DNA of 64,000 nucleotides from Isoetes taiwanensis (Eukaryota; Streptophyta; Lycopodiopsida; Isoetales; Isoetaceae): positions 1,939,995 through 2,003,994 of the forward strand of contig JAJEKV010000025.1 in the NCBI GenBank assembly GCA_021234155.1, given 5' to 3'. The translations under genes were made by a program, and so were the position numbers. The notes beneath the pieces are model-generated. The model did no database searches. It saw only the letters and a list, made by a program, of their open reading frames with translations, and was not told where the DNA came from. How positions within the stretch are numbered: the stretch's first letter is position 1; the number at the start of each line of letters is the position of its first letter. Positions 13,722 to 40,900 of the stretch are shown one piece after another.

Positions 13722-14614
13722 ATGCAGGAAGAGAACGACGACGAGTGGTTTTCTCATCTTTCTCAAGAAGATTTTGAAAACCTAGAAATGGAGGCAAGAC
13801 AAAAACTAGCTGAACGGCGTAATTCTGCATCTGGGACATCCCCATCTACCCCAGCAACAGATTCACCCCTTTCGCCGGCAAAAAAAAGACCCTTTAGCCA
13901 ATGTTCTGAAGGCAGTAGTAGTCAATATGCCTCCTCCAACCTCCCAGTGGTTGTAAAGATGTTTCATGAGGGGCTTGCAAAAGTGGCGTTTCAGATACCA
14001 GATAATCGGGTATGTTTAAATTAAATTCATCACATGTCATGAACGTGTCTGCTTCTCAATGTCTGGTTGTTTTATTGTGCAGGATCTGGTTGCAGCCCTT
14101 AAGACTGTCCCAGATCATGAATGGAGTCATGGGTGGGTTTAATGTGTTTTGGGAAAAACAATTCACTAAAGCAGACGATATTTACTGGATCCACTGTTTT
14201 TTAGGGCGTGGATATTTCCTGAGGATCGTGCCGGGGAAGTTAAAAGAGCCTTAAAGTCCATCCCTAATCTTAAGGTTCAACACACTCTTATCTCCTCCTT
14301 CTTTTTGAATATTTTGAGTTTAGACAGCTTATAAACTCTGAAAATTGATATAGCCTTACTATAACAGGTGCAGCTTGTTCAGGAAGATGGTCTTCACTTA
14401 GGTAGTCTCAAATGATCTTGTTAAGCTATCTCTTGTTTAGACAACTTGATAATTTACTACTCATGCAATGAAGATGCTGTTTCTGCTGTCCACGGTGGTG
14501 ATATTGGTAACACTCCAGCTGCTGAGGATGCTCGTGCCGCCGCCGCCAATGATGATGATGATCCTATTAATGAGGGTCGTGATCCTGCTGATGCCGCCAC
14601 CGCTGCTGCTGCTT

Positions 14615-14653
<39 letters not shown>

Positions 14654-16818
14654 CTGATGATGATCCTACTAATGAGGATTTTGACATGTCTGGTGATGAT
14701 GATCCTACTCATGAGGATTTTGATGCTGCTGATTACGAAGATCATCAGCATGATGACTGTGAATATGATTATGAGTGTGATTGTGATTTTATGCAATTTT
14801 GGTGTTGCAGTCGAGACCCCCGCTTTGTAGTAGTGGTTTTTCAGGATGAAGGGTCTAAAATTGGTACAAGTTCTGTTTTTAATCAGGTACGCCTTTCACT
14901 GTTATTGCTGGCATGTATTATTAAAATGTAAACTTCCTACATAGTTGTAGATGTTGGCCTGCTTGTGTTCTGTAGGAACTTGTTGATGCATGGAAGAGGA
15001 TCCCAGGGCATGAGTGGGTGCCTTCTCGCAAGTTAGTTGTCATGCCCTGCCTTATTTTCAATTCCCAAGTCTCGTTTTGGTTAAAACTTGTATGGCACTT
15101 TTTAGGGTATGGTTGTTTCCTGAGCAGCATCTGAAGGACATTTTGCTGGCTTTGAGATCACTGACTGGAAGAACCGCAGAGGTATGGGGTTATTGGAAGT
15201 GAGATCTGATTTTCTTATTGAACATTCCTATTGAATTGTAGCATTTTATCAACTTAGGTTGAACTTCGTCCTCCACTTACATGGCCAGACTTAGCAGCGG
15301 GTATGGATGTGTATCTAAATTATAGCATTCTAGTTGTTATGGTACCATAATTTTCTTATTATATGAACTTGCTCTCTGAGGCGCTGCAGAAGATGAGCTG
15401 ATGACCATCAAAGTGCTACTTTTTTTGACAGAAGATGCTCGAATTGGTGCCCGTAATCCTTACAACGAGGTGTGTTTTCAAAATGGAGCATATGCTGTCA
15501 ACTTTTGTCTTCTTACTTGATTTTTTACATGAACGTAACAATAAACTGAACTTTCCACTTCAGATGATAAAGAATGCTTGTAGAGCAGTCCCTGGGCGTT
15601 TGTGGAATAAGGAAGAGAAGTATGTTTTCTGACATGATCTTATATTGTTTTTCCTTTCTGTTTTGTTTTCAACAGTAGGTGATGTTAATTAGATGCTTAA
15701 TATACTACATGAATTGCATGCATTGCACAAGCCTGAGTCAGCCAGCCAATGACAGGAAGCAAATAATTTTTTTTTTCTAGAATCTGACACAATGCAATGT
15801 GGATCCATAAATTGGCCTGCTTATATGTGCAGAATGTGGACTTTTCCATTAAGTAGTTTCAAAGAACTTGTACAGGAGTTGCATAAAATCTCATCACCTG
15901 TGGTTCAGGTCAGTTGCAATGAAGGTTGTGATGGCAATTCTCTGCAAAAAGAACTGTGCATAATGTTTCTGTTCTTGTCAGATTGAAGCCAGACCTCCTC
16001 TAGTTTTACCATCTATGGGAGGAGATAATGGTGAGGATTTCATTTTTAGCATTACATCAATGAGGATTTCATTTTCAGCATTATATCAAATATGTCATGG
16101 ATGCATGAATGACGTTTATAGTTTTTGCCATGATAACATATGCTTGAAGGTGGTTAATAGTTTATGTGCCATGACGAAGGAAGGCATCATATACAATCAA
16201 TAGTTCCTTTAAATGATGATTGCTTCTGACATCATAGGTTTCAGCATTTTCAAATTTGTCTCATAAATTTTATGACCCCTTCGTTTTGTTAGGATACAAA
16301 TTGACCGACTGCGTGTTTCCAGCTGATTGGCATGCTTGGTTTCCTGAGGACTTTTTTTCTTCTCTCTCCCTTTTCTGATCTTTAGTAGATGCCATTCATC
16401 TCGCTGCAGATCTCCGTTTATCTCCCAGATGCAATCTTACAGAAAATCCTTCTTCTCTTATTGATTTAACGCCACCTGCCATCGAAGATGATGCTGAATC
16501 CTCTAAAACGAAGGTAAATAAACGATACTTTGCAGACAATTGTGGTCTGGCTTTGTAATACATCCTGACTGTGTCACCAAAAACATGTTTTTGCAGCGAG
16601 CAAAGTCGAACGAAGATTCTCCGATTCCTAAGGTTTCTGCAACGTGTGCAGTTTGTCTAGAAGGCATAAGAGACATGTACATGTACTCCACAACCTGCGG
16701 CCACATTTTCCATGAAGATTGCATTAGAAAGGCAATAAGGAGCCAGCACATGTGTCCTACGTGTCGTTGTAAGTTAACAGATCAAATGGTACACCGTTTG
16801 TACTTCGACGCGGCTTAA
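13722..16818 (+). CDS. HARP-repeat, SIM and RING-H2 protein; putative SUMO-targeted E3 ubiquitin ligase
   Basis: I read 14 exons: 13722-14009, 14083-14132, 14205-14274, 14368-14401, 14474-14886, 14976-15031, 15106-15181, 15258-15300, 15390-15469, 15564-15619, 15833-15908, 15982-16030, 16386-16513, 16597-16818. All introns are GT-AG and phases agree, giving 546 residues. Residues 18-34 (EDFENLEMEARQKLAERRN) resemble the SMARCAL1 RPA-binding motif. Three HARP-like units (about 75-147, 265-345, 347-430) share Y/FNxxLVxAxKxxPxxxWxxxxKxWxFP. An acidic tract with (GAT)n coding follows unit 1. LIDLT at 455-459, with acidic residues after it, fits a SUMO-interacting motif. RING-H2 ligands are C490, C493, C507, H509, H512, C515, C526, C529. 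No SNF2 ATPase is present. Inference: a nuclear E3 acting on SUMOylated proteins at single-stranded DNA or stalled forks. Least certain are the 14474 acceptor and the 16031-16385 intron. Confidence 0.82.
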
Positions 16819-36813: not shown

Positions 36814-37560
36814 GTGGTTGCAAACGTCGAGGATGGACACCCGCATCGGAAGTGCATGGTGCTTGACATAAATGGTGTACTGGCACAGACACAACAGAGG
36901 AGAATGAATCAAAAAATCTTGCATCCACCACAAACGAACCATGTTGTAAAAGAAACTGCAAGTAAGTACCTCATTTGCAGACCAGGGTATCATGAGTTTG
37001 TGGAGTGGGCACTGCAGAGGTTTGATGTTGTGATTTGGAGTGCTTCTCTGCTTCGAATACAAGGGATATGGTGGATGCATTGTTCCCTCTGATCTGCACC
37101 CCCATTCTTGAAGATATATGGTCAAGAGCATTGCTATGTATGCGAGCATCCAACCAAAGACAAAAGCAACTATTTTTCAAGGAGTTGAAGGTTGTTCTTG
37201 AGGATTTTCCTCAATATCATGGTATGAATTTCTTGGTTGATGACAGCCTGCACAAAGGGTTTCTAAACCCTGCACACACAACCGTTCCTGTTATGCCTTT
37301 CAAGGGGCAAGAAGAGGACAATTTTTTGCAGAAGTTTGTGTGTCCGGCTTTGGAATACTTGGCCTCTCATACAGTACAGGAAACGATCTCACAAATTGAT
37401 TTCACTGATGCATGGTTGGCCCCGAGACGATTTCTTGATCTTTGGATTACTGTCTCAACAACTACCTTGTCTCAGCCTACTATATCCTCAATGCTCCTAT
37501 TGAAGTACAAAGGCAAATCTTTGGGCACCCTTCCCTCGGCGACGAGCATAGATTTGAGGA
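36814..37560 (+). pseudogene. FCP1/NIF-like HAD phosphatase, frameshifted
   Basis: HAD-fold phosphatase of the FCP1/NLI-interacting-factor type. HAD motif I is MVLDINGVLA near 36857, with the D-x-N variant seen in some plant members in place of DxDxT. Next come YLICRPGYHEFVEWALQRFD and VVIWSAS (37.0 kb). After a frame change come NTRDMVDALFP and FLVDDSLHKGFLNP (motif III/IV region). The chain ends near LASHTVQETI. The frame change coincides with an 8-bp near-duplication, TGCTTCTC|TGCTTCGA at 37041-37056: removing one unit restores SASNTRDMV. It lies upstream of the minus-strand transposase in element A, tail to tail. Confidence 0.75.
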
Positions 37561-37983
37561 CTTCGATGACTTATGAAGTAACCATTGTACACTACTTTTT
37601 TGTAATATATGCAGATTACTTTGTGTTATATCTTGAGTATTGAGTGATCTTGTAAGATGTCTCAAATGTTGAGTGCACAATTTTCTCGTAATATATATCA
37701 AGCTTACTCGCAATACTACAAGCATTGTTTCCAAAGACTAAAATACTCCAATACAAAGACTACTACAAGCATTGTTTCCTATACTAAAAGACTCCAATAC
37801 TCACAAGCATTGTCTCCAATATAATGATCAAAATTTGAGACAAGTACACAAGTAACTACTGAGACTGTTAAAATGATAAAACAACTAGGTCAAAGCATAT
37901 TCAACCTTCATATGGCGTGATTGTCAAGGATCATCCGTGAGTAGCCCGATCAAGGGAAAATCTGTTAGTGCCGTGAATCTGAT

Positions 37984-40900
37984 TCATCTCAAACTTGATG
38001 GTGATACGTGATGATCAGATTTGGAAGGTCGGACCTTTGTCTTCAAGTAGCTCCCAAGTACCATCGGGCCGACAAAGATAGTACAAACCAGCCAACACAT
38101 GTTCATCGACATTGAAGGTTCGACCCCAATATCCTTGACAATTACATCAAGGATATGCCTCGACTTAACACATTTGACCACATAGAAATCTGCATTCTCC
38201 TCGATTTCCTCCTCTGGCCTACAAACAAAGTTATCACCTTCCTCTATGTTTCCACTAAGCCATTCTCCATCACCTTCAAAAATGCCTCATCGATTTCGTC
38301 TTGATGCCTTCACCAAATGAGACTTTTACGGCTTTAGAGTAACATATTTCCAATTCTTTAACCTCTGCTTGTTCACACAAGATGACCAGTTTCCTTTCAA
38401 ACAGTTACCACAGAAACAACTTAAACCTCTATGAGCCACCCTTGTGCTTGATTTGGCCAAGTATGTCCTGATGCTGTGTATTTCCTTCGTCCCTTCTACC
38501 CTGGCACAGTCCAGCCGGGTTCATTCCTATCAACATCATCCTTTCCAATGAACCAAAAGTGCACGCAAAAAGCCGGCCAACAACTATTGCGGTTCACATA
38601 CAAAGATGAGGCACATTACAGCATTACACAGCAGATAAAAGCAGATAAAAGCACTTTGTGAAGCAGATGAAAGCACGTTAAAAGCAGATGAATGCAGATG
38701 AAAGCATATTACCTCTTGATGTCCCCGTTGCTGGCACCTTCATTCCAACTCATAGCGAATTCATTGCATCAAGCTGAAGACCCTAAATCTCACTCCATCA
38801 TACTTGAGCTGCTCTCTAGTGAATGCCCCTTTGAGGACTGCCCCTTGCCCATCGTGCTCTCCCTTACCATGGGCTGTCCCAAAGAAATTCCATATTATTT
38901 CCTTCCCTAGCTCGTGGTGATATCTTGGTAGGAAATAGAATGGTCGGGCAGATTTGAATTGGCTAGAACAACCATCCCGACCAAACTATATGCCCGGAGA
39001 ATTCTACACCATTTGATACTAGCCATGAATTGTGCTTTCTAAGACAGTGTTGCACAAAAAGAGTGTCATGAATCTTGTCATCACTCAAGTAAAAATGGGT
39101 TTCCTTCAATAGCTTTTCGATCCCGAGAGTTGTCCATCCTATACATGATGTGGACGAGAATTGTTATTTGGTCATTGTGCCCATGCTGGCTTTGAACCTC
39201 CCTTTGTATTTTGATGCTGTAATTCTCAGCAAAATCAATTACAGAAACAATGGTGCCATCTTGGATATTGTCCAAGCACCTCTTGAATTGCATGGCCTGC
39301 CACCTAGCCCTGTAATTGTGTGACACGAATATCTTCAACGTGGAACACAGATATGAAATGAAAGCCTTCACTGCCGTTCTCTTGTAAGACAATCTAAGAA
39401 CTGGCTTTGGTCCTTTCTTTTTTTTCCCCTTGCCATTTGAGGTCTCATCTTGTGCTGCAGCTTCAGGCTGTGTCCCACCAGCTGCCTTGGATTTCTTACT
39501 TTTGTTTCCCTTCTTCTCAACTTGTCTCGCAGCCTTCAGTCGGGTCCTACCAAATACCTTGGATTTCTTACTTTTGTTTCCATTCTTCTCAGCTTGTGCT
39601 GCAGCTTCAGGGAGTGTCCCACCAGCTACCTTGGACTTCTTACTTTGGTTTCCCTTCTTGGTGGCATTAGATCTTTTCTTTCTGCTGCCACCTGGCACTT
39701 CCTTGGTAACGCAGGCTGCAACTCCATCAGCTTCTTCTGTCTCCACCGAATCAGAACAAGGTCCAGTAGCATAAAAAAGAAGATCGGTATAAGTTGAAAG
39801 CACAAAAGCGATGGTCGGCGATGACAAGACACATATCGGCATGCTTCAAAGAAACAATAAAGAGAGTATTACCTTTTCAAACGTCTTCCATTCAAGCAAG
39901 AACTCGTGATTCTCTCTTTCTCTTGGACATATAGGAAGACTTTTCGTGCCACACTTCTGACATGTCTGCATCAAGCGAATATGTTTATACCATTCTTCAC
40001 CCTCGCTCTTGTTGCAAACCACGACCCTCCGTGAGCTCATTGGTTGAGTCATAATGTATGTTGGTGGCGGACACTTCTCACCGTGTCCACGGACCTCGCA
40101 GTGCACTTGCACTCTTCACCATGGAATCCGGTTTTTGGCGACCTTAATGCATTCGGTGCTACCCGCATACTCCAACTTCATATGGTATATGCAACAACGG
40201 GTTTCCTTTACGATACTTTCTTCACATAAATAGGCTTCAACTTCTCGAAAGCCTTTAAGCAAACGGTGTTCGGGATGTCCCTTTTGTATTGTTGATATAG
40301 TCTGCGGTTAATGGTGGCCTTTGGTTAGAAATAGCGTAAAAAAAAAAAAGTTTGTATGGAAACTTATACATGTGACCTCCGGAAGGTGCAAGGGATAAGA
40401 AATTCGAAGCCCCGACTCTCCAACGATGTTCACAACATCTTTCTTGCAAGGAGAGACTCTAGCTGTTTTCTTTCCAGAATTACATTTATGCTTTGCTTGC
40501 AAGCGGGGGTGAGAGAATCGCACCTCAACCTCTTTTTGGAAAAGCGGACCACGGACCATTTCCAAGGAAGGCTTCCCGATTTCCTTAATGCGGCCGTTGC
40601 AATTGTTGACCTCATGCAACCTATCATAAGAAATATTGCACATGTATCAATGAACATATCCCAAACAAAGATCACTCAAAGCAGATACAAGCACTTGAAA
40701 GCATGAAGAAGCACGTGCATGAAGACAAGAAATAGATGTACCTAACAGCCCCGCCATAGTGGAATTGCATCTCGAATTTGTGGAAGAAGCCATCACAAGT
40801 GTTGAGGTTCCGCTCTCCAAATATCATGGTTCCTTAGCCTCTTTGTGGCTGCCATTGTCTCTGTTTCAAGTTGTTGAGCAAAGCACTCCCTTGCCTTTGC

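Follow-up and report, generated by a model that had tools for sequence, protein, structure and literature searches.

SMARCAL1, the HARP helicase for which the initial annotation of this locus gave the plant name CHR18, is recruited to stalled forks through RPA. The animal protein is described as having one HARP domain in invertebrates or two in vertebrates; in the human protein annealing does not depend on the N-proximal HARP, and the part from the motor-proximal second HARP through the SNF2 end suffices for it (plant units may not correspond to these) (PMC4035279). SUMO-targeted ubiquitin ligases (STUbLs) are characterised by SIMs together with a RING E3, and RNF4 is described as carrying four SIMs (PMC8161396). 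How STUbLs pick their substrates among the many SUMOylated chromatin proteins is described as an open question (PMC6545562). An E3 RING and a DNA-reading domain occur together in single fork-related proteins: HLTF contains HIRAN, RING and SWI/SNF domains (PMC4666394), and a DNA-reading domain with an E3 RING is also described for SHPRH (PMC6702750). The protein predicted here resembles both in this pairing. Unlike HLTF, with its SWI/SNF motor, and the ATPase SHPRH, however, the present protein has HARP as its reader, and no motor was found in it.

The stretch of DNA analysed, hereafter the window, is 64,000 nucleotides long. The predicted gene at 13722-16818 on its plus strand consists of 14 exons, with GT-AG at every intron and consistent phases, and encodes 538 residues with one terminal stop. 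The initial annotation had read an open 14-exon frame of 546 residues; the open frame stands, whereas the length is 538 residues with the exon 13 acceptor at 16410 and becomes 546 only with the acceptor at 16386, 24 nt earlier, as read by eye. Splice alignment of the model protein to the window DNA returned the identical 14 exons, which is not independent evidence for them. In order, the predicted product comprises an RPA-motif-like N-terminus, three HARP units, a SIM-like LIDLT and a RING-H2 finger, with an acidic linker after unit 1 (Table 1). A trinucleotide array at 14615-14664 encodes the poly-Asp stretch of this linker and is likely a site of length variation. An acidic stretch resembling the linker is also found in L025, a paralog described below.

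No SNF2 family was detected in a Pfam scan of the 538-residue product, and the same scan gave neither a HIRAN domain nor a SWI/SNF motor at E<=1; NCBIfam returned nothing above its cut-offs. In the six frames of the 64 kb, regular expressions, which intron-split motifs would escape, found no DEMGLGKT-like or HRxGQ string. The product scan and the motif scan both support the initial annotation in placing no SNF2 ATPase beside the HARP units. Four DExH-type strings in the 64 kb (DEAH twice, DECH and DEGH) were judged from their context to be unrelated.

Table 1. Features of the predicted HARP-RING gene (positions in the window).
Feature	Position	Strand	Basis
Exon 1: start codon, residues 1-96, start of HARP unit 1	13722..14009	+	gene model
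RPA32-binding-motif-like helix, residues 13-33	13758-13820	+	match to 4mqv SMARCAL1 peptide
HARP unit 1, residues 74-147, exons 1-4, degenerate	13941..14400	+	score against SMARCAL1 unit 1
Acidic low-complexity linker, residues 148-259, mostly exon 5	14401..14808	+	sequence
HARP unit 2, residues 261-342, exons 5-8	14812..15296	+	Pfam below cut-off; SMARCAL1 unit 1 match
HARP unit 3, residues 344-428, exons 8-12	15300..16023	+	Pfam HARP over cut-off
Exon 13, SIM exon; alternative acceptor 16386	16410..16513	+	gene model
LIDLT and acidic residues, residues 446-459	16454-16495	+	pattern scan
Exon 14: RING-H2 residues 481-526, C-terminal HRLYF tail, stop codon	16597..16818	+	Pfam zf-RING_2

Searched against Pfam, the spliced product matched HARP at 36.9 bits (gathering cut-off 25) and zf-RING_2 at 41.6 bits (cut-off 27.3), both over cut-off, and the RING-H2 finger read from the letters alone was thereby confirmed. 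Taken singly, unit 3 matched HARP with 27.6 bits and unit 2 with 15.6 bits (E 0.012, under the cut-off), while unit 1 alone gave no Pfam HARP match and is recognisable only through its relatives, with a score of 118 to unit 1 of the SMARCAL1 gene described below against 49 for the best of 200 shuffles. An alignment of 15 units was made from the three window units and twelve units of five other loci (L025, L024, L023, L029 and SMARCAL1 on C1059), omitting L028, a near-copy of L029, the broken L031 and unit 1 of L029. Two tryptophans and one proline are invariant across the 15 units, with the spacing W-x6-W-x2-P in window unit 3, and nine of them reach E<=1 against Pfam HARP. When the 15-unit profile was compared with the PDB, the sole match below E 0.01 was the SMARCAL1 HARP domain 4o66 (E 0.0011; next 0.83). 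The Pfam and profile results therefore identify the window units as HARP, with unit 1 degenerate; of the three HARP-like repeats originally claimed, the second and third are upheld by Pfam or profile and by their relatives, whereas the first is degenerate and unmatched on its own. A genome search with Pfam HARP gave six weak matches (L001-L006, best E 1.18), none of them over cut-off; four are copies of a single repeat, and a HARP gene could be read at none of the six. This search does not show absence, because the window gene itself, with its HARP units split by introns, was missed.

A SMARCAL1 gene of the same genome (L030/L040) is located on the minus strand of C1059, at about 8418470-8430170. 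Its SNF2 exons (C1059:8423778-8424216), near a weak HARP match, were found when the genome was searched with a fragment of an SNF2 sequence. The gene reads MENDDEW..., followed by three HARP units ahead of the SNF2 motifs, compared with the one or two described for animals (PMC4035279), and motifs of the kinds scanned for in the window are readable at this locus. Its spliced part matched Pfam HARP with 49.4 bits and SNF2 with 40.0 bits, seven residues having been dropped from unit 3 and from the protein searched, on the unproven assumption that an exon aligned at 101 nt is shorter.

The 56- and 76-nt exons of SMARCAL1 units 1 and 2, the only units for which this match is claimed, are found again, in identical phases, in window units 2 and 3; the corresponding exons of window unit 1 are 50 and 70 nt. 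The matches between units are specific: by score, the best partner of window unit 3 is SMARCAL1 unit 2 (224, z 48.8) and that of window unit 2 is SMARCAL1 unit 1 (168, z 34.6), to which window unit 1 is also closest (z 20.6). SMARCAL1 unit 3, which adjoins the motor, scored 70, 88 and 85 against window units 1, 2 and 3, and by these comparisons the motor-proximal unit is without a clear counterpart in the window gene. The RPA-motif-like N-terminus of the initial annotation proved homologous to the N-terminus of the genome's own SMARCAL1, with 43% identity. Within it, the helix LSQEDFENLEMEARQKLAERR is similar to the RPA-bound SMARCAL1 peptide in PDB entry 4mqv; the best ungapped match is weak (shuffle P=0.005), compared with a shuffle P of 0.0002 for the C1059 protein, and that peptide was not recovered when the window N-terminus was searched against the PDB. 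The window gene is thus like SMARCAL1 in its N-terminus, its HARP units and the lengths and phases of their exons, and unlike it in ending with a SIM exon and a RING instead of the SNF2 ATPase. A second SNF2 gene, on C922 (L041 4029-4720), has a clearly RPA-binding-like N-terminus, MAITDEQRRRMEANRAAALSRLK, close to the 4mqv SMARCAL1 peptide; it is possibly ZRANB3-like, and it is not among the 22 matches of a second genome search for HARP. Of these 22, one match each on C1053, C1036 and C290 led to no convincing HARP exons.

Searched against the PDB, the RING exon has RNF4 chains as its top five matches. The first of these chains carries the RING twice and scored E 6e-20, or 2.2e-9 when its better copy alone is counted; single-copy RNF4 was matched at E 1.5e-10 to 3.9e-9, and AMFR came next at 2.3e-7. 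In a control search with L021, a RING-H2 of general type from this genome, none of the 27 PDB matches at E<=1e-6 was RNF4. A fold of the RING exon modelled without an alignment was poor (pLDDT 62.5); of the 125 matches that a search with it gave at E<=10, none reached E<=0.001, and the 50 listed did not include RNF4. In a genome RING search (82 matches at E<=0.01; 150 of 257 candidates scored), the RING of the window family was found at five loci, the window, C8, two more on C1029 and C479, with E<=9.5e-23. Among the 150 candidates scored, the nearest RING outside the family is on C1045 (L027; E 2.8e-14; next 1.3e-7). At this locus, open frames with VVLDDDDEVQV and IDLTSINDDCE lie upstream of a RING exon. 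Like its counterpart in the window gene, this exon starts with an acceptor in phase 0; the donor between the IDLT frame and the RING exon is predicted only, and weak. The best PDB match of C1045 is the two-copy RNF4 chain (6.1e-20); by single RING, RING2 (8.7e-10) and RNF4 (2.2e-9) are level, and its tail to residue 73 or beyond is matched only by RNF4 chains and three BRE1-type chains. RNF4-like is therefore the best label for C1045, although it is less clear-cut than that of the window RING.

The window gene shares with the RNF4-type C1045 gene the RNF4-type RING, a C-terminal H-x-x-Y tail and an IDLT upstream of the RING exon. It differs in that the fifth RING ligand is His, whereas it is Cys in both RNF4 and C1045, and in that the SMARCAL1 half replaces the RNF4 N-terminus. 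There is also a single LIDL core, compared with the four SIMs described for RNF4 (PMC8161396). The bare pattern [VIL][VIL]x[VIL] occurs as five strings in the product, four of them within HARP units 2 and 3; the fifth, LIDL at residue 447, lies outside all the HARP units and has three acidic neighbours, a number equalled by VVVV at residue 266 in HARP unit 2. Of the SIM originally proposed, the SIM-like LIDLT is thus present, but it is a single core and is altered in several of the copies described below.

Four further RING-bearing copies were identified in the genome, three of which have HARP exons before the RING exon. L025, on C479, contains three HARP units and the RING, and its SIM core is changed to LIDS. 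L024, on the minus strand of C1029, has two HARP units, LIDLA and the RING, and L023, also on C1029, has two HARP units, an altered SIM and the RING; no convincing N-terminus was found in the first 2.4 kb of L023 or in the 6 kb upstream (L035). The fourth copy, L026 on C8, consists of the SIM and RING exons only, within the 6 kb read. In addition, L028 and L029 (on C176 and C954) have HARP units and the SIM exon with no recognisable RING in the 8 kb read, and L031 on C1070 is a broken relative. Three copies, those in the window, on C8 and at L024, preserve the LIDL core, which is altered in L025, L023 and the RING-less copies on C176 and C954. Because three other loci keep HARP exons ahead of the RING exon, the HARP-RING arrangement is not a matter of chance, and, the splice phases being continuous as well, the initial annotation's treatment of the locus as one gene is supported.

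The homology and exon match with SMARCAL1 on the one side, and an RNF4-type RING with C1045 as its nearest outside relative on the other, together point to a fusion of both gene types; judged from sequence, the gene is almost certainly a SMARCAL1 5' half joined to an RNF4-type 3' end of SIM exon and RING exon. The sequences themselves show that both halves are homologous to these genes, in which order they stand, and that paralogs have kept this order. The initial annotation proposed a SUMO-targeted ligase directed to forks or single-stranded DNA, and the origin of one half from SMARCAL1 and of the other from an RNF4-type gene strengthens that proposal. In the mechanism we propose, the SMARCAL1 part would bring the protein to RPA-coated single-stranded DNA and branched DNA at stalled forks, the SIM would select SUMOylated proteins there, and the RING would ubiquitinate them. 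A ligase would stand in the place of the helicase motor, so that fork proteins would be marked or cleared rather than DNA annealed. A fork-targeted STUbL is the simplest reading, in which we infer recruitment, SUMO reading and ligase activity from the parts of the predicted protein. Counting against this mechanism are the weak RPA motif, the degenerate unit 1 and a unit 2 that alone stays under the Pfam cut-off, the copies with altered LIDL, the copies on C176 and C954 with no recognisable RING, and the rival SIM-pattern string in unit 2. On the same side stand the omega values for L025 and the C8 fragment given below, the level single-RING matches of C1045 to RING2 and RNF4, the poor fold of the RING exon and the maize homologue MPEL1, also discussed below. 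On balance, we regard the fusion and the fork-directed SUMO-targeted ligase, taken jointly, as marginally probable. The alternatives considered below overlap with each other, and the probabilities assigned to them need not sum to one.

The fusion may be real and the family nevertheless decaying or relaxed, consisting of duplicated, drifting fragments, and several observations would fit this view: the copy on C8 is reduced to two exons, those on C176 and C954 are without a RING, HARP unit 1 is degenerate and the linker contains a trinucleotide array. In the substitution rates that follow, whole-gene omega (dN/dS) refers to the window gene against each paralog with the linker excluded. The N-terminal and HARP part compared with L025 gave an omega of 0.82 (95% 0.59-1.21), indistinguishable from 1, and on the L025 branch the HARP part gave 1.10 and 1.28. 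The C8 fragment shows no sign of constraint against the window gene, with an omega of 1.33 for the SIM exon and, for the RING, no synonymous difference and a pN of 0.03, in both cases from few changes. However, the window copy has an open frame with GT-AG at every intron, and its whole-gene omega is 0.33 (95% 0.23-0.44) to L024, 0.48 (95% 0.35-0.67) to L023 and 0.69 (95% 0.51-0.92) to L025. The SIM and RING exons together gave 0.26 (L024), 0.40 (L023) and 0.42 (L025). According to the branch estimates, much of the relaxation falls on the L025 branch, and the window branch has point estimates of 0.44, 0.58 and 0.56 in three trios for the aligned gene without the linker; the branch estimate for SIM and RING with L023 and L024 is meaningless, since dS is negative. 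We regard a decaying or relaxed family as unlikely.

It is distinctly unlikely, in our judgement, that the SMARCAL1-derived half works while the RING end is a SUMO ligase or a SUMO-independent ubiquitin ligase. A precedent is found in MPEL1, a maize STUbL homologue described as a SUMO ligase and not a ubiquitin ligase (PMC13324008), and the single LIDL core, altered in some copies, would be compatible with such a function. The RNF4-type RING is, however, preceded by an IDLT-bearing exon as in the RNF4-like gene, and the SIM exon, at 33-35 codons in each comparison, gave an omega of 0.21 to L024, 0.33 to L025 and 0.52 to L023, but 1.33 to the C8 fragment.

The protein might also act mainly as a competitor of SMARCAL1, either by occupying RPA and fork DNA without a motor or by ubiquitinating SMARCAL1, and so tune fork reversal. 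Retention of the SMARCAL1 N-terminus and the motor-distal HARPs, together with the lack of a clear counterpart of the motor-proximal HARP and of the SNF2 domain, would suit such a role. A pure competitor would have no need of a constrained RING, whereas the RING omega is 0.29 to L024, 0.34 to L023 and 0.50 to L025; we consider the competitor role quite improbable. That the locus holds two adjacent genes, one a HARP fragment and the other a RING gene of its own, is highly improbable, and this reading is rejected because the paralogs at three other loci keep HARP exons with, and ahead of, the RING exon, and splice phases run through the window gene.

The fork-targeted STUbL, if true, would have its substrates chosen by place, a way that is without description in the literature searched; the STUbL end would apparently have been hard-wired by evolution to the fork-recognition half of SMARCAL1. 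No protein with HARP and RING but without SNF2 was found in the literature searched, which covered titles and abstract openings, with most subscription papers lying outside the search, and the main text of the Isoetes genome paper makes no mention of SMARCAL1, ubiquitin ligase, DNA repair or SUMO (PMC8566536). A more tentative extension, possible though short of probable, is that the lineage kept SMARCAL1 and also built, out of its recruitment half, a motor-less, fork-reading STUbL in which HARP units would serve as DNA-junction readers. This gene makes two questions testable. One is whether HARP units are able to direct anything besides a helicase motor to its site; the other is whether a single polypeptide can confine SUMO-dependent ubiquitination to stalled forks.

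Elsewhere in the window, a lysine-rich open frame at 39081-39845 on the minus strand, with no Pfam match at E<=0.01, contains a 72-base tandem repeat in three copies at 39443-39659. An open frame at 37026-37643 on the plus strand matches Pfam NIF (NLI interacting factor-like phosphatase) exactly at the cut-off, with 21.8 bits.
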